Source of the DNA: SAR86 cluster bacterium
Lineage (GTDB): Bacteria; Pseudomonadota; Gammaproteobacteria; Pseudomonadales; Pseudohongiellaceae
Length of the DNA: 36,134 bases
Assembly (NCBI GenBank): GCA_002746215.1
Contig: NVWI01000005.1
Location: 125,546-161,679, forward strand
Reading direction: 5' to 3'
The position numbers and the translations under genes were made by a program. The notes below the pieces were generated by a model. The model was given only the letters and a program-made list of their open reading frames with translations. It ran no database searches and was not told the DNA's origin. Below, piece after piece: positions 14,538 through 25,749 of this stretch (positions are counted from its first letter, which is position 1; every line of letters starts with the position of its first letter).

Positions 14538-15215
14538 GTGAATAAACCCAAAATTATGCTAGCTGTACTCACTTGCATGCTGGCATCAACAGTCAGCTTT
14601 GCCCAAAATGATGAACAACCAGAAATGTCCTTTTTTATTACCAGTGTTGGCGGCGGTGATGGCGGCAACCTTGGCGGCTTAGTCGGCGCTGATACTCATT
14701 GCCAGGCCTTAGCCAGCGCCGTTGATCGTGGTGATTCCACCTGGCGAGCTTATTTGAGTACACAGGGAATAAATGCCGTAGATGCCCGAGATCGAATTGG
14801 CACTGGCCCCTGGTATGGTGCTGTGGGCAATTTGATCGCGCGTGATCAAGATCACCTGCATGGGGATACACTAGAGCAAGCAAGACTTGGCAATGGCCTG
14901 CATCCTTTTCATGCCCGTACAGAAAGCGGCGAAATAGTACCTGGCATCCTAACCAGGGAGTATGGCCTTGATGTAAGCAAGCATGACATCTTGACTGGTT
15001 CAACACCCGAAGGCCGTGCCTACCCCACAGGGGATGATCAAACCTGTTCAAACTGGAGTAATAATAGTGGCGGCAGCGCTCGGGTTGGCCATCATGACCG
15101 TCATGGTTTTATGGATAATTCCTGGAATTCCACTCATAACACGCGTGGCTGTAGCCAGGAAGAACTTATCCCAAGTGGTGGTGCCGGATTATTCTATTGC
15201 TTTGCAATAGAATAA
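14538..15215 (+). CDS. Exported lectin-fold-like protein of unknown function
   Basis: A 225-residue secreted protein starting with GTG, supported by CGGAG at 14526-14530. A signal peptide (IMLAVLTCMLASTVSFAQ) precedes one domain. The domain opens with FFITSVGGGDGGNLGGLVGAD and THCQALA and continues WRAYLST, ARDRIGTGPWY and AVGNLIARDQDHLHGD. It closes with a Cys-containing stretch (DDQTCSNWSNN, GCSQEELIPSGGAGLFYCFA). The pattern of a GAD-xxCQ helix, WRAYLS, RIGxGPW and a final Cys-rich GLFYCF resembles collagenase-like/endostatin or C-type-lectin-fold domains found in environmental proteobacteria. Function not known. The last codons lie in a perfect hairpin (15189-15215). Confidence 0.75.
   Translation: MNKPKIMLAVLTCMLASTVSFAQNDEQPEMSFFITSVGGGDGGNLGGLVGADTHCQALASAVDRGDSTWRAYLSTQGINAVDARDRIGTGPWYGAVGNLIARDQDHLHGDTLEQARLGNGLHPFHARTESGEIVPGILTREYGLDVSKHDILTGSTPEGRAYPTGDDQTCSNWSNNSGGSARVGHHDRHGFMDNSWNSTHNTRGCSQEELIPSGGAGLFYCFAIE
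15189..15215. repeat. Perfect hairpin spanning the stop codon
   Basis: TTATTCTATTGC (15189-15200) and GCAATAGAATAA (15204-15215) form a perfect 12-base stem with a TTT loop; the last three bases are the stop codon of the preceding gene. No T tract follows, so it is not a standard terminator. It might stall exonucleases or ribosomes. Confidence 0.6.
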
Positions 15216-18887: not shown

Positions 18888-18916
18888 TTGACAATGCTCT
18901 TTGTCTAACCTATTTT
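18888..18916 (+). promoter_or_regulatory. Sigma-70 promoter of the secreted MBL/VOC cassette
   Basis: A perfect TTGACA (18888-18893), a 17-base spacer, then TATTTT (18911-18916). It points at the first gene of the cassette (ATG 19000), leaving a leader of about 77 bases. Confidence 0.6.
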
Positions 18917-18999
18917 GATTGGCTCCAGAGTTAGAAAAAAATCAAACTAAAAACAGCAAGTATACTGTTAATTATTATAATAAATATTGAGGCAAACGC

Positions 19000-19875
19000 A
19001 TGTGCAAGTCCCGACCATATCTACCCCACCTACTACTGTTTTTTCTCTCGGCCTGTTATGTAACAACAGCTTCGGCTCAGACTAATCTCGGGGGGGTCTG
19101 GCTGGCCGATTACACAGAAGACCGTGGGGATCGCATTCCTGGCCCGGCACTGGGCGATTACGGCGGACTGCCATTAAACGATGCCAACCGACTGAGGGCG
19201 CAAAGTTGGAGTGCTTCTTTGCTGGGTTTGCCTGAATATCAATGCCGTGTGCATCCTTCAGACTATGCCCACAGCTTTAATAATATTAATCTGAGAGAAG
19301 AACGTGATCCCCGAACCCTCGAGTTGATTGCCATACATCTTGAACATTTCACTTGGCAAACGCGCCGGGTTATCTGGATGGATGGGCGCGAACATCCGCC
19401 GGAATACGCAGCTCACACCTCGATGGGTTTTTCCACCGGAGAATGGCTTGGACATAAGCTTAAGGTTACGACTACTCACCTTAAGGAAGGCTGGTTACGG
19501 CGCAACGGAGTTGCTCGCAGCGACCAGGCAAGCGTGACTGAATATTTTATCCGGCATGGCAATTTACTCGTTTGGACCGTCATTGTTGATGACCCGGTTT
19601 ACCTGGAAGAGCCCATTATCCGTAATCGAAATTATAATTATTCCACAGAGGTGCAAATACTTACCTACCCATGTGAAAGCGTTATTGAAATAGTCCATGA
19701 ACCCGGTTATATCCCACATTATCTGCCTGGTAATACCCCATACTTGTTCGAATTTGCGGATAGTTACAATATTCCTCACCAGGCCACCTTGGGAGGGGCC
19801 GCAACCATGTATCCCGAATACAGAAAGTTTCTCCTAGATTTACCTAGCCCTAGTACAACGCAAAACCAGGAGTAA
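19000..19875 (+). CDS. Exported protein of unknown function, paralogue A of the cassette
   Basis: A 291-residue protein with a signal peptide (LLLFFLSACYVTTASAQ, cleavage near residue 26). The mature part has NLGGVWLADYTEDRGDRIPG, EYQCRVHPSDYAHSF, RRVIWMDGREHPPEY, MGFSTGEWLGHKLKVTTTHL, KEGWLRRNGVARSDQASV and VIVDDPVYLEEP. The order of elements (Cys-containing segment, R-x-I-x-MDGR-x-HP, G-x-S-x-G-x-W, D-Q-TEYF, DP-x-Y-x-x-P) recalls a large uncharacterised family of secreted proteins from proteobacteria and acidobacteria. No catalytic function is established that I can name. It shares the LRRNGV-x-x-SDQ block with the gene at 20870. It is the first of four same-strand genes, with 5 bases to the MBL gene. 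Confidence 0.8.
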   Translation: MCKSRPYLPHLLLFFLSACYVTTASAQTNLGGVWLADYTEDRGDRIPGPALGDYGGLPLNDANRLRAQSWSASLLGLPEYQCRVHPSDYAHSFNNINLREERDPRTLELIAIHLEHFTWQTRRVIWMDGREHPPEYAAHTSMGFSTGEWLGHKLKVTTTHLKEGWLRRNGVARSDQASVTEYFIRHGNLLVWTVIVDDPVYLEEPIIRNRNYNYSTEVQILTYPCESVIEIVHEPGYIPHYLPGNTPYLFEFADSYNIPHQATLGGAATMYPEYRKFLLDLPSPSTTQNQE

Positions 19876-19880
19876 AGAAG

Positions 19881-20813
19881 ATGCGAATTTTAATGAAAAC
19901 TATTTTATCCAGCATAGTGCTCCTATGCTCCGCCCCTGGTTTTTCTCAGCCCGACTTTGACAATATCGACATCCATACCCTTAAGGTAAGAAACAATATT
20001 TATATGCTAGTTGGTGCTGGTGGCAATATCACGGCACAGGTTGGCGACGACGGCATACTCATTGTCGATACTCAGTACGCTGAAATGTCTGACAAGATAT
20101 TAGCGGCTCTGCAGGAAATATCGGGTGGCGCCGCCTTGCGCTATATTATTAACACGCATGTTCACGGTGATCATGTCGGAGGCAATGTCAATTTAGCTCG
20201 ATCCGGGGCTACTATCAGTGGCGGCAATATGCGCAGGGATGTCACGGGTCAATCTGCCGCTATCATCGCGCACGAAAGTGTTCTGCTCAGATTAACCACC
20301 ACTGATGCCGGTAGCACAATGGATGTCGATGGCTGGCCGACGAGTTCTTATTTTGAAGGCAAAAAGGATATTTATTTTAACGGCGAAGGCGTCCGCATCA
20401 TGCATCAACCCCGTGCCCACACCGATGGAGACAGTATCGTTTACTTCCGTAAATCCGATGTCATAGCGACAGGAGATGTTTACCGGACTGATGCTTACCC
20501 CTTCATTGACATCGCGACAGGAGGCACAATTCAAGGCTTTCTCAATGCTGCTCAAGCCATTATCGACCAGATTATTCCGGTATATGGACAAGATGGCGGC
20601 ACCTTGGTCATCCCCGGGCATGGTCGTCTCAGCGACTTTGGCGATGTTCTAAACTGGCGTGAAATGTTGACCATCATCCATGACCGAGTTAAAGACTTAA
20701 AAGATCAAGGTCTGAGCTTGGAAGAAGTATTAGAAGCCAAGCCCAGTCTTGATTATGACCCACGTTATGGTGACAGTGAACGTTTCATTACAGCTGTTTA
20801 CCAAACGCTTTAG
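19881..20813 (+). CDS. Exported metallo-beta-lactamase-fold hydrolase
   Basis: A 310-residue MBL-superfamily protein with a signal peptide (TILSSIVLLCSAPGFSQ). The zinc ligands are visible: THVHGDHVGGN (H93, H95, D97, H98), H180 in PRAHTDGDSIVY, D199 in ATGDVYRTD and H247 in IPGHGRL. GILIVDTQYA (58-67) is also typical. This set defines a competent metallohydrolase; the family contains glyoxalase II, lactonases, B3-like lactamases and quinoprotein-relay hydrolases, and the substrate is unknown. AGGAG at 19868-19872 supports the start. It is tightly linked to the gene upstream (5 bases) and probably co-expressed with the downstream paralogue and the VOC gene. Acting in the periplasm is inferred from the signal peptide. 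Confidence 0.92.
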   Translation: MRILMKTILSSIVLLCSAPGFSQPDFDNIDIHTLKVRNNIYMLVGAGGNITAQVGDDGILIVDTQYAEMSDKILAALQEISGGAALRYIINTHVHGDHVGGNVNLARSGATISGGNMRRDVTGQSAAIIAHESVLLRLTTTDAGSTMDVDGWPTSSYFEGKKDIYFNGEGVRIMHQPRAHTDGDSIVYFRKSDVIATGDVYRTDAYPFIDIATGGTIQGFLNAAQAIIDQIIPVYGQDGGTLVIPGHGRLSDFGDVLNWREMLTIIHDRVKDLKDQGLSLEEVLEAKPSLDYDPRYGDSERFITAVYQTL

Positions 20814-20869
20814 TTAACGCTTCATAGCCACCAGCAGCAATCAATAAATTCTGAAAAGTGAATTCAAAA

Positions 20870-21631
20870 ATGACAAAAAAAACGCTACTAATTTCATACC
20901 TTTCTTTATCTTTTTTACTGGGGGCCAGTTTGGGCAATGCGCAATTTGGGCCACCTGAGGTCGAGGTAATTGATGATGCTCAAGAAGCCGCACCGATTGA
21001 TATCACAGGAAACTGGGTTTCCATCGTCACTGAAGACTGGCGTTACAGAATTCTCACTGGAGACGTTGGCGACACCGAAGGCTACTTTTTAACTGAACTG
21101 GGTACACGCGTAGCAGAATCCTGGGATCCTGCTACAGACGAAGCTTCTGGGGAAGCCTGTAGAGCGTATGGTGCGGCAGGTATTATGCGTCAACCAACAC
21201 GACTGCAGATAAGCTGGGAAAATAATAATACTCTCGAAATAGAGACCGATGCTGGCATGCAAACTCGCCGGCTTAAATTCGGGGAAGCTCAGGATGGAGC
21301 AGGCACCGGCTCCTGGCAAGGCGTATCTAATGCCAACTGGAACCTGCACCGTCAGGGACGAGGTGGTCCTGTAATTAGCGGCACTCTGGAAGTTGAAACC
21401 CATGGCATGCGACAGGGTTATTTACGCCGTAACGGCGTTCCCTACAGCGACCAATCCACGATGCAAGAATATTTTGATGTGGTGACTCAGGATGATGGCA
21501 CTGAATATCTTATTGTCCTTTCCATCGTGGAAGATCCTGTATTTTTAAATGGCCCGGCGATGACCAGTAGCAATTTCCGTCGTGAAGCGAATGATAATCT
21601 TTGGGATCCATCCGGATGTCTGACTCAATAA
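20870..21631 (+). CDS. Exported protein of unknown function, paralogue B of the cassette
   Basis: A 253-residue protein with a signal peptide (LLISYLSLSFLLGASLGNAQ). The mature part shows ITGNWVSIVTEDWRYRI, GEACRAYGAAGIMRQPTRLQ, TRRLKFG, GTLEVETHGMRQGYLRRNG, PYSDQSTMQEYFDVV and IVEDPVFLNGPAMTSSNFRRE. It is clearly related to the gene at 19000 through the shared LRRNGV-x-x-SDQ-x-x-x-x-EYF block, the Cys segment and the DP-x-x-L segment, but is shorter by about 40 residues and lacks the MDGREHP motif. The ATG at 20870 is preferred over a GTG at 20858, as AAGTGA precedes it. Function unknown; its place after the MBL gene suggests a shared process. Confidence 0.78.
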   Translation: MTKKTLLISYLSLSFLLGASLGNAQFGPPEVEVIDDAQEAAPIDITGNWVSIVTEDWRYRILTGDVGDTEGYFLTELGTRVAESWDPATDEASGEACRAYGAAGIMRQPTRLQISWENNNTLEIETDAGMQTRRLKFGEAQDGAGTGSWQGVSNANWNLHRQGRGGPVISGTLEVETHGMRQGYLRRNGVPYSDQSTMQEYFDVVTQDDGTEYLIVLSIVEDPVFLNGPAMTSSNFRREANDNLWDPSGCLTQ

Positions 21632-21663
21632 AACCATTAGTAATGGTATTAAGGCTTCATACA

Positions 21664-22671
21664 ATGAGAATCAAGCTGTTTTTAGCCAAGCCTGCCAGGA
21701 TCGTAATAACCATCATCCTCCTCACTCAGAGTTTGCTGGCAGCACAAGCGCAAGTCATCACCGGAGGCAACAATTACATTAACACCGTTGCTGACCTTGA
21801 TCGCAGCATTGCGTTTTATGAGGAAGCATTTGGTCTAAGTACGCAAACCATGTTTGCAGAGCCCACTGGCGTTCCAATGATTCAGAACCTGACTAATACA
21901 GGTAACGGCCTTATACGCATCGGCACAGCAGAAATACCAGGGGCAAATTTCCTGCTTGAGTTTACTGAGTTTTCTGAGCTCAACCGTAACCCTGGTCGTT
22001 TCAATATGCATGACCCAGGCAGTGCCAGATTGCTACTCGTGGTCACCGACATCGATACCATGTTAGAAGCCGCTATTGCTGCTGGAGCCACCATCGAGAC
22101 CACGGGTGGAGAGATATTACGCCGAGATGCTTCTGACGGATCATACAATCGCGCCATCTTTCTCAGAGATCTTGATGGCTTTCTGGTAGAGCTGGTACAA
22201 CGTTACTCTGCAACTAGTGTCATGCCAGCTATGGGGAACCCTGCTGTCATTGGAGGCGGATTTTCAATCACAGTCGAAAATCTGGAACGATCAATTGAAT
22301 TTTGGCGCCATTTTGGCATTGACTTCATATCTACTTTATCAGGCCGAAGTGATCCTACCTCCAATGCTCTTGCCGCCACTGAAGGTGCTTCCTTATACGG
22401 TGCTAACGTGGTTATTCAAAATTCAGACTTTAGTTGGAGTCTGTTTGAGTTCAACAATATAAATCGTAACGCCTTTCAACGTAATATTCCCGACCCTGGC
22501 GCTCCTGCACTGTCGTTACTTATCAATGATATGGACGCTGCTATGGCCGCAATTGATGCTTCAGGTGCCGATATTGTCAGTGTTGATAATCAAGCAGTGT
22601 CGATAGGTGAAGGTGCTAACATCTTTATTCGCGACCCAGATGGATTCCTGATTGAGTTAATCAAAAGATAA
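21664..22671 (+). CDS. Exported tandem VOC (glyoxalase/dioxygenase-fold) protein
   Basis: A protein of 335 residues with two vicinal-oxygen-chelate domains. The first (about 33-165) contains NYINTVADLDRSIAFYEEAFGL and ends IFLRDLDGFLVELVQRY. The second (about 185-335) contains GGGFSITVENLERSIEFWRHFG and ends IFIRDPDGFLIELIKR. These are the two ends of the VOC fold with its metal-ligand Glu. The signal peptide (IVITIILLTQSLLAAQAQ) appears if the ATG at 21664 is used, with AAGG 10 bases upstream. The frame runs upstream into the previous gene (to 21601), so an overlapping earlier start is possible. VOC enzymes are usually cytosolic; export is unusual. Substrate unknown. Confidence 0.85.
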   Translation: MRIKLFLAKPARIVITIILLTQSLLAAQAQVITGGNNYINTVADLDRSIAFYEEAFGLSTQTMFAEPTGVPMIQNLTNTGNGLIRIGTAEIPGANFLLEFTEFSELNRNPGRFNMHDPGSARLLLVVTDIDTMLEAAIAAGATIETTGGEILRRDASDGSYNRAIFLRDLDGFLVELVQRYSATSVMPAMGNPAVIGGGFSITVENLERSIEFWRHFGIDFISTLSGRSDPTSNALAATEGASLYGANVVIQNSDFSWSLFEFNNINRNAFQRNIPDPGAPALSLLINDMDAAMAAIDASGADIVSVDNQAVSIGEGANIFIRDPDGFLIELIKR

Positions 22672-22704: not shown

Positions 22705-23457
22705 CTAGAAATTAATTCTAACCACCGCTTGCATGGCTGATTCGTTGAAGCCAGCTCTACCAGTTTTATTGTGCCAATACAGATACTCTACGCCGAGATA
22801 AAGCTTGTCATGCACTTTCCACAGTATTTGTGGCTGAGCCTGGTAATGACTGGCGCTAGTCCCCTCACTACCCGTAATGTCATAGAAACCTTCAAAAGAA
22901 AAGTTTTTATTCCAAAATATAAATGGGTAATTCCAGGCAATTGTCATTTACTGAGTATGCCCCGAGATCGTTGGGTCATTACGATTAAACACGTGCAGTT
23001 TAAAAAAACGAAAACCTGGCAAAGCTAAATCAACACTAAGCCCAGCCAAAAAAGTTGTTTTCTCAACATGCTTGTTATGTACGTAATCAAATTCGCTAAT
23101 TAAATAAAAATCACGGATTAGGCCGAAGGGAACAGGGCCATCACCCAGAATCTTCCCAGGGCTAATCCTAGGGGCCCACTCAAAATAGGTATTACCGGCA
23201 TTTTCAAAATTGCCCAAATTAGAAAGGTCCAGAAAATAAAAGTTATCTCCAAAACTCCATGTGCGGCTATGTTTGTAGGTCATGAGGGACTGACCATCTC
23301 GCCCCCCTCGATCATAGGCGTCGGAATATACCAACTCTAACGAGTCACTTCCCTGAGCATTGGCCTGTAAATAGCTAAAAGAATTAAAAACAAAAATTAG
23401 TAACAGAAAGTTTTTCTTAGCGTTCTTAAGCGATTTAAGCAGAGGTGTAATGTTCAA
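22705..23457 (-). pseudogene. Tsx/OmpK-like outer-membrane channel gene split by an in-frame TAA
   Basis: Two minus-strand pieces lie in the same frame. The upstream piece ends at a TAA (22950-22948); the next codon is ATG (22947) and the frame continues 80 more codons to a natural end. The joined product looks like a nucleoside-specific channel (Tsx/OmpK) barrel: signal region FLLLIFVFNSFSYLQANAQ, SFGDNFYFLDLSNL, TYFEWAPRISPGK, LPGFRFFKLHVFNRNDP, then after the stop MTIAWNYPFIFWNKNFSFEG, LGVEYLYWHNKTG and a C-terminal Phe (VVRINF) as in porins. One base change (for example CAA to TAA) explains the break. No ATG precedes the signal peptide in frame; I placed the start at a TTG (23457), since the alternative TTG at 23517 lies in a terminator hairpin. 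A sequencing error or split translation from TAAATG are alternatives. Confidence 0.75.
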
Positions 23458-23502
23458 GAAAATTTCACTGTTATTTAACTTGCAGGAATTAGAACTTTTT
23501 AA

Positions 23503-23537
23503 AAACAGGATCAGCAAGGTATATACTGACCCTGTTT
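23503..23537 (-). terminator. Rho-independent terminator after the SMP-30-like gene
   Basis: Reading the minus strand, AAACAGGGTCAG (23537-23526) pairs with CTGATCCTGTTT (23514-23503) with one G-U pair and an 11-base loop, and T residues continue to 23501. It lies 10 bases past the stop at 23548, so the porin remnant downstream depends on readthrough or its own promoter. Confidence 0.75.
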
Positions 23538-24708: not shown

Positions 24709-25749
24709 ATGACAATTTATAAAAGGTCCCTGCAAGGAATGGTCGTCTTACTTGCTGCGCTTACAGCCGTGGGATGCTCTCAGGAAGAAGCATCAATGCC
24801 TGATCAAGCAAGCAACGACATGGCTGTTGATATGGCCACAGACATGACAGCTTCTATAGATATGGCGGCTGAAGAACATGGTGTAATGACTGCTCAAGAG
24901 CAGGCCAATTTAGAAAGAGCTGAAGAATGGTGGCGTACTGTTTTAATGGGTGGCCGCCTTGATCAAGCTGAAGAATACATGACTGACAGATATATACAGC
25001 ATAATCCTGATGTCCCTACTGGACGTGAAGGTTTTATGCAGTTTTTTGGTGCTTTCGCTCAGCCAGGCCCAATTCCTGAAGATTTCCCACCTACTGATGT
25101 CAAATTTGCCAAAGGCGACTACGTAGTCTTTGTCTGGGAAAGACAATCTGAAGATCCTGAGACTGGCGAATCTTATGATTATAGTTTTTTCGATGTTTTG
25201 CGTATGGTTGATGGCCGAGTTGATGAGCATTGGGACAGTGTATTCCGTGCAACACCTCCTCCTGGCGCGCCAATAATGCCTGTTGCTGCAGGTGTGGGCC
25301 CACGTCCGGTTGCTCCATCTAATACGGCTGCTGAACAGGCTGTCGAAGACCTTGTTAACATTGAAATGAAGGATATTCTTCAATATCAAAATGTTGATCT
25401 GGCTATGCAGGTTATGGCCGAAGATTATATTCAACATAATCCTAATGTCCCTGACGGACGTGATGGCTTCATTGACTTCTTCAGCCGCTTTGCTAACCCA
25501 CAGCCGATTCAAGACGAATGGTTAGATGAACCTGAACTGGTTATCACGCATGGTGATATCGCTTTGTATATCATGACACGCTACTCAGAAGATCCTATCA
25601 GAGATAATGAAGTCTACAAATGGAACTGGTTTGATATGTTCCGTGTAGAAAACGGCATGATCCAGGAGCATTGGGATGGTGCAACACGCGATAATAATGT
25701 ACCGCCTAGTGTTGAGCCTCCAGCAGGGTTTGTATCATTCAGTAACTAA
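24709..25749 (+). CDS. Lipoprotein with two SnoaL-like (NTF2-fold) domains
   Basis: A 346-residue exported lipoprotein: after the helix GMVVLLAALTAVGC the lipidated residue is C23. A low-complexity Met/Asp/Ala linker (about 25-60) follows. Two similar SnoaL-like domains come next. Domain 1 (about 68-185) has EEYMTDRYIQHNPDVPTGRE and DYSFFDVLRMVDGRVDEHWD. Domain 2 (about 205-335) has MQVMAEDYIQHNPNVPDGRD and WNWFDMFRVENGMIQEHWDG. The YIQHNP...GR...EHWD pattern is the signature of SnoaL-type polyketide cyclase-like proteins; small-molecule binding or isomerase activity is known in the family, but many have no known role. The repeat indicates an internal duplication. It is a single-gene unit with its own promoter and terminator. 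Confidence 0.88.
   Translation: MTIYKRSLQGMVVLLAALTAVGCSQEEASMPDQASNDMAVDMATDMTASIDMAAEEHGVMTAQEQANLERAEEWWRTVLMGGRLDQAEEYMTDRYIQHNPDVPTGREGFMQFFGAFAQPGPIPEDFPPTDVKFAKGDYVVFVWERQSEDPETGESYDYSFFDVLRMVDGRVDEHWDSVFRATPPPGAPIMPVAAGVGPRPVAPSNTAAEQAVEDLVNIEMKDILQYQNVDLAMQVMAEDYIQHNPNVPDGRDGFIDFFSRFANPQPIQDEWLDEPELVITHGDIALYIMTRYSEDPIRDNEVYKWNWFDMFRVENGMIQEHWDGATRDNNVPPSVEPPAGFVSFSN

Follow-up and report, generated by a model that had tools for sequence, protein, structure and literature searches.

A recurrent exported gene set for two paralogous, predicted calycin-like proteins and a metallo-beta-lactamase-fold partner in Gammaproteobacteria and Acidobacteriota

Chlorothalonil hydrolytic dehalogenase is described as a zinc enzyme acting on an aromatic ring (PMC12784990). 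This enzyme (pdb entry 6uxu, E-value 3.8e-8) and pdb entry 8d2z (2.2e-10, or 7e-20 with a profile of the query) are by sequence the nearest solved relatives of a metallo-beta-lactamase (MBL) fold protein from a SAR86 cluster bacterium. The corresponding gene, here called B, lies between two further genes, A and C, in a 36,134-nucleotide stretch of contig NVWI01000005.1 (assembly GCA_002746215.1, positions 125,546 to 161,679), which as a whole is referred to as the window. The best NCBIfam match of B is a quinoprotein relay zinc metallohydrolase model (TIGR04559, 8.2e-20), with 71.4 bits compared to a cut-off of 280. A and C have no match in Pfam or NCBIfam at E<=1. We report that A, B and C recur together, with A and B fused into single polypeptides in 27 distinct ORFs, nearly all acidobacterial by record title. 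That A-B-C is a real module is, in our view, nearly certain.

The A-B-C set and its recurrence

The core features of the window are the following.

19000..19875, plus strand: gene A, exported 291-aa protein with a predicted calycin-like barrel and a C-terminal extension, without Pfam or NCBIfam family
19495..19527, plus strand: LRRNG-x3-SDQ motif of A; R167, R168, N169 and G170 are invariant in 79 A rows of alignment A4
19881..20813, plus strand: gene B, exported MBL-fold protein of 310 aa; seven-ligand metal site complete in the window copy
20157..20174, plus strand: HVHGDH metal-ligand motif of B, residues 93-98
20418-20420, plus strand: B ligand H180
20475-20477, plus strand: B ligand D199
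20619-20621, plus strand: B ligand H247
20870..21631, plus strand: gene C, exported 253-aa paralogue of A with a predicted calycin-like barrel; an alternative GTG start at 20858 is possible
21422..21454, plus strand: LRRNG-x3-SDQ motif of C

A fourth gene, D, follows C. The original prediction placed A to D on one strand with gaps of 5, 56 and 32 bases, and the coordinates of the open reading frames (ORFs) agree with this. Signal peptides had also been assigned to all four proteins. All four pass a crude signal-peptide rule, which is weak by itself: it passes 73/80 A, 59/73 B and 51/58 C proteins, but also 433/1057 other ORFs.

The strongest evidence for joint action comes from gene fusions. 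Single ORFs that encode an A domain and, after a linker of 11-28 aa, a B domain numbered 31, of which 27 are distinct (four were duplicates); the order was always the same. The domains are full or nearly full, except that B of locus L145 is cut by the contig end and B of L202 was matched in two pieces. By record title, which served to assign host groups throughout, 26 of the 27 belong to Acidobacteriota groups; the remaining one, L144, is titled Bordetella parapertussis, a metagenome-assembled genome that we judge to be misnamed. Because each of these 27 ORFs joins A and B in one polypeptide, the two very probably function together, and it is highly probable that they form a physical unit.

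Gene linkage points in the same direction. A scan of genome contigs for A yielded 554 confirmed stretches, the best 80 of which were used as loci. In these loci, 52 A copies are flanked by 3.5 kb on either side; B adjoins or is fused to 48 of them (8 fused), and 38 have both B and C. In chosen stretches of three acidobacterial genomes, 35 of 37 A copies have B (11 fused) and 23 have B and C. The two sets overlap, because copies of genomes G800, G801 and G803 occur in both, and are therefore not additive; 35 and 8 A copies, respectively, were left out because their flanks were too short. Coverage by the 40 acidobacterial stretches is 20 of 29 A matches in G800, 8 stretches for 11 matches in G801 and 12 for 14 in G803.

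The genome of the window itself (3.1 Mb, 22 contigs) contains eight A-B-C sets, a recurrence that puts the gene order beyond chance (contigs are numbered C2 to C22 below):

C5:144545-147173, the window set
C3:10010-12557
C11:22703-25311, with A found in two pieces
C5:61349-63981
C4:79612-82222
C2:65952-68236
C22:187702-190337
C8:111919-114524, in the order B-C-A

Two lone A genes (C4:102574 and C12:117339) and further pieces at contig ends are also present. For six complete sets of this genome the pairwise distances correlate with 0.88 (A/B), 0.82 (A/C) and 0.73 (B/C), values reached by 1, 6 and 6 of 720 permutations; for 40 loci with one each of A, B and C the correlations are 0.84, 0.76 and 0.80, reached by 0/2000 permutations. 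Such agreement across paralogous sets is expected if the set was duplicated as a block.

The distribution is uneven. In 57 genomes, including that of the window, some A match at 1e-3 was found in 34, and among the matches listed in those 57 genomes all better than 1e-40 come from three genera of the same family. A survey of 369 gammaproteobacterial genomes drawn over the class, with at most six candidates scored per genome, gave an A match at 1e-30 in the window genome only (1/369). Nine carrier genomes chosen from the loci have, at the same threshold, 29, 11, 9, 14 and 4 A matches under acidobacterial titles and 8, 8, 12 and 10 under gammaproteobacterial ones. Thus, the module occurs in scattered genomes, and its carriers have many copies. 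The nearest relatives of the window set by gene A are gammaproteobacterial metagenome-assembled genomes, UBA5109 among them; the best-80 stretches are titled Gammaproteobacteria, other Proteobacteria and Acidobacteriota groups, and the two main clades into which midpoint rooting divides the A tree each contain both phyla. Plasmids contained one weak A match (Croceibacterium) and no C match. The original prediction of a recurrent exported system is supported by A-B-C neighbourhoods in two phyla and by the A-B fusions, and the objection that the genes might not co-occur outside close relatives fails.

Predicted folds of A and C and the metal site of B

A and C had been noticed as two related proteins that share LRRNG-x3-SDQ. 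Their homology extends beyond the motif, over 195 profile columns (profile-profile E 3.9e-39), and by this sequence comparison they are paralogues of one family. A pair of cysteines is invariant in each of the larger alignments (C82 and C225 in the 79 A rows of A4, C97 and C250 in 56 C rows of A5), and is not universal in the 18 rows of the first A alignment. AlphaFold models of A and C are confident (pLDDT, the predicted local distance difference test, 85.9 and 86.2) and rich in antiparallel-type strands. Alignment with VIA-align to cellular retinol-binding protein 1 gave Z 10.3 over 119 residues for A and 9.6 over 116 residues for C. In Foldseek, where no row reached E<=1e-3, A came closest to UnaG and fatty-acid-binding proteins, and C to avidins. 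A sequence search of the PDB with the C profile returned nothing at E<=10. We call A and C calycin-like, and not proven calycins.

B passes the Pfam model Lactamase_B (PF00753) with E 6.4e-11 and 43 bits, compared to a gathering cut-off of 22.7. The full zinc site that had been proposed is found in the window copy: H93, H95, D97, H98, H180, D199 and H247 (HHDHHDH) are all in place, so that window B is, by its residues, an MBL-fold protein with a complete dinuclear metal site. Conservation was followed in 112 B domains (at least 250 bits and at least 750 bases, from the fetched loci, identical ones counted once), a sample that includes a few second MBL genes at loci with all three genes and two domains without A within 1.5 kb. 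All seven ligands are kept in 66 of the 112, and D97, H98, D199 and H247 are retained in 84, including 18 of the 46 domains in which the set is incomplete. Metal-site status changes at least 15 times on the B tree. In the window genome, the site is intact in three of the eight sets (the window, C3 and C11); the five others include that of C2, which was read from ambiguous bases. B of locus L068 contains ambiguous bases. Around all 46 degraded B domains, A lies within 1.5 kb or is fused to B, and 27 of the domains have C nearby. The fold is thus kept where full metal binding is lost.

A second MBL gene and a SnoaL protein gene follow the set on its 3' side, in the same orientation, at one orthologous locus (L058:9606-10508, L122:12614-13495 and L136:12623-13504). 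The second MBL of L058 is metal-complete, and a gene for a longer MBL protein comes next.

Gene D and other neighbours

Additional features of the window set are given below.

21664..22671, plus strand: gene D, exported tandem VOC protein, an add-on outside the conserved core
18888..18916, plus strand: promoter-like site TTGACA-17-TATTTT 5' of A, 10/12 matches

The original prediction was correct in describing D as a tandem VOC protein, since it has two Glyoxalase/VOC stretches (PF00903, 54.2 bits compared to a gathering cut-off of 20.6). Its place as a core member did not hold. In the two nearest relatives, the corresponding loci (L070 and L071) have no D after C; D-like ORFs occur in 4/101 loci (the window, L061, L065 and L101) and directly 3' of C in the window only. 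From the other side, 25 D-like places were seen in seven genomes, and an A gene stands within 7 kb of four of them. D was therefore rejected as a core member. The promoter that had been rated as good is present as a site. As evidence it has no value, because the stretch holds 6 such sites and shuffles hold 8.1 (standard deviation 3.1).

The propellers and the SnoaL protein that had been listed nearby are real, as SGL and tandem SnoaL_2 proteins, respectively, while the porin ORF of the window has no Pfam match and is recognized as Tsx-like solely via its relative in L071. An in-frame stop divides this gene (window 22705-23517, minus strand) into two ORFs, and the reading frame is open in the relative (L071:11824-12561). 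SnoaL proteins are found near D or a D homologue at two places of the window genome (window 24709-25749 and L061:7401-8318). A small exported-looking protein (MSFFITS...GGNLGGL; window 14538-15215) has relatives at L060:6788-7495, L066:1733-2383 and L071:1023-1712. The relatives adjoin several A-B-C sets, once 12 bases 5' of A, and a DUF1554 match below the cut-off was obtained in two of three tested. Gene calls are longest-ORF picks, and some neighbours in GC-rich loci are therefore spurious.

The most consistent extra neighbour is DUF6152 (20 loci, mean rank 0.12, 0/5000 within-locus shuffles as close). SnoaL proteins are also closer to the set than chance (8 loci, 6/5000), mostly in the genus of the window organism. 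With 13 families tested, the closeness is nominal only for HpaB (8 loci, 179/5000), tannase (5, 77), MFS (8, 142) and AraC (8, 124). In these shuffles, carboxylesterase, cupin, ALDH, SMP-30, PQQ and TonB genes showed no closeness to the sets beyond what chance would give.

Near the sets we counted 26 DUF6152-type ORFs (23 distinct), four of which are:

L072:10270-10746
L065:7066-7566
L067:8484-8918
L102:12712-13122

These and the 22 others all have HHS right after a likely signal-peptidase site, judged by eye and mostly A-x-A, and a conserved NPH. The mature protein may accordingly start with histidine, as copper histidine-brace proteins do. Comparison of a DUF6152 protein with the PDB gave no credible match (best E 0.13), and our literature search found no paper mentioning DUF6152 or Rariloculus.

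Proposed function and comparison with known systems

We propose that A, B and C belong to a single exported unit. From the models, the barrels of A and C may hold a small, probably hydrophobic ligand. A would dock on B and present or shape the substrate, which B would hydrolyse in the periplasm where its metal site is complete. The 4-29 A copies per carrier could represent versions for different ligands, and units whose B has lost metal ligands would still serve for binding. The window copy should, by its ligand set, be an active metal hydrolase, with D as an added VOC-fold protein on the same or a related compound. For this mechanism as a whole, a binding-plus-hydrolysis unit that was copied and diversified for different small ligands, we see about an even chance. 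Plant- or algae-derived phenolic compounds are our best guess for the substrate, although a doubtful one.

Several observations weigh against this proposal. The full ligand set is lacking in 46/112 B domains and present in just 4/25 fused ones, and consequently hydrolysis cannot be the general function. Exported-looking, B-like MBL genes also exist on their own in eight other Pseudomonadota genomes (G762, G691, G050, G729, G782, G705, G689 and G737), where the surrounding stretches (L158-L165) contain no A or C nearby; the B fold thus works alone as well. Lone A copies (4/52 and 2/37) are found in both linkage sets, and C, missing near 10/48 and 12/35 A-B pairs, is less constant than the A-B pairing. 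Foldseek returned no match for the A and C models at E<=1e-3 (best 1.4e-3), and its best rows reach whole-query TM-scores of only ~0.2-0.3. Finally, the aromatic link did not hold against controls. A same-genome control in three acidobacterial genomes found HpaB in 0/40 case loci and tannase in 2/40 case versus 1/20 control loci, and nothing was significant after correction for 18 tests; the best nominal results, TonB-carboxypeptidase (7 versus 0 loci, p 0.048) and DUF6152 (6 versus 0, p 0.077), do not survive it. Pfam counts for 105 ORFs near the sets and 100 away from them (out of 148 and 140, the longest mostly left out; 25 commonest families shown) revealed no dominant neighbour, the largest differences being PQQ (4 versus 1) and Lactamase_B (4 versus none listed).

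Alternatively, A-B-C could be a periplasmic complex that serves chiefly for binding, sensing or envelope structure, with the MBL fold as a scaffold and catalysis as a side activity of some copies. The constant company of A, and often C, around the 46 degraded B domains and the repeated changes of metal-site status would be in line with this, as would the calycin-like predictions, which fit ligand binding, and the exported-looking, small DUF6152 protein as the most consistent extra neighbour. However, seven ligands in 66 domains and a retained D97, H98, D199 and H247 in 84 would hardly be expected unless metal binding is under selection, and we regard this alternative as rather unlikely. A narrower variant of the hydrolase proposal is an uptake and catabolism module specifically for phenolic compounds such as cinnamates, phenylacetates or alkylphenols. 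HpaB (8/91 loci) and tannase/feruloyl esterase (5/91) all lie within 2.5 kb of sets, a p-cresol methylhydroxylase-like oxidase is found near an A fragment (L069), hpa/pca genes stand ~3-8 kb from some sets, with HpaE, HpaH and PcaF above the NCBIfam cut-offs, and B is distantly related to the aromatic-ring enzyme chlorothalonil dehalogenase (PMC12784990). In contrast, these genes are not enriched over the same-genome controls. The window genome has no HpaB match, and beside the window set we found only an FAH-family gene upstream. Aromatic catabolism was therefore rejected as the general function; owing to the negative outcome of the controlled comparison, phenolics are kept merely as a guess, and a module dedicated to them is quite improbable.

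Protection against antibiotics or toxic natural products, with B as a distant metallo-beta-lactamase-like enzyme and A and C as scavenging barrels, appears more improbable still. B looks exported and matches solved beta-lactamases as well as the NCBIfam models for class B enzymes, but the scores are all far below the curated cut-offs (41.7/200 for B1, 23.9/240 for both B2 and B3, 43.4/100 for the core domain). Residue 199 of B is Asp, not Cys; the matching position is Asp in lactonases and glyoxalase II and Cys in subclass B1. It would also be unusual for a resistance system to occur in many copies per genome whose metal sites have diverged or are missing. The least probable explanation, and a very remote one, is the glyoxalase-like route that was originally suggested for the window, in which VOC and MBL proteins isomerise and open a ring or oxo compound in the periplasm. 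Both proteins have the fitting folds and look exported; moreover, D-like tandem VOC proteins, two of them within 7 kb of A, are multi-copy in four acidobacterial genomes. Nevertheless, D scores 47.9 bits with the glyoxalase I model TIGR00068 (cut-off 120) and B 25.6 bits with gloB (cut-off 200.8), many B copies have no metal site, D directly follows C in the window only, and the conserved partners A and C would be left unexplained.

We see somewhat less than an even chance that A-B-C is an undescribed exported system, the word undescribed referring solely to our combined literature searches, which found no matching paper. Calycin-like barrels would hold the substrate, as domains fused to or docked on an MBL partner, with amplification to as many as 29 A copies per genome in Acidobacteriota and some ten in a few lineages of Gammaproteobacteria; metal ligands would have been lost repeatedly, giving rise to pure binding units, and DUF6152 would be a frequent extra part. 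For two multi-copy exported families without a Pfam model, a fold can thereby be guessed and a physical partner, B, be named; the A-B gene fusions make this partnership directly testable. Acidobacteriota are common, poorly understood soil bacteria, and the many copies in some of them suggest unexplored small-molecule handling outside the cytoplasm. Metal-complete and metal-deficient B copies in one genome offer a natural test of the transition from hydrolase to binding protein. If the proposal is true, the sets would form a catalogue of small-molecule handlers built on a known enzyme fold.

Compared to the described systems, B shares the MBL fold with 6uxu and 8d2z, but belongs to an exported cassette with many copies and often has metal ligands missing; to our knowledge, no A- or C-like partner is known for either of the two. 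The quinoprotein relay zinc metallohydrolases (TIGR04559 and TIGR04558) resemble B as its top NCBIfam match and through PQQ propeller genes near some sets, whereas the score is far below the cut-off and the closeness of PQQ genes to the sets does not exceed chance. Like the glyoxalase I/VOC family (PF00903), D contains VOC stretches, two in number, but it looks exported and remains far below the glyoxalase I cut-off. The predicted barrels of A and C align with calycin barrels (cellular retinol- and fatty-acid-binding proteins and avidins) over 103-120 residues with Z 8.4-10.3 in the listed rows. In contrast to these, with which they share 7-18% identity in the VIA alignments, A and C are bacterial, exported proteins with a conserved Cys pair and the LRRNG motif.

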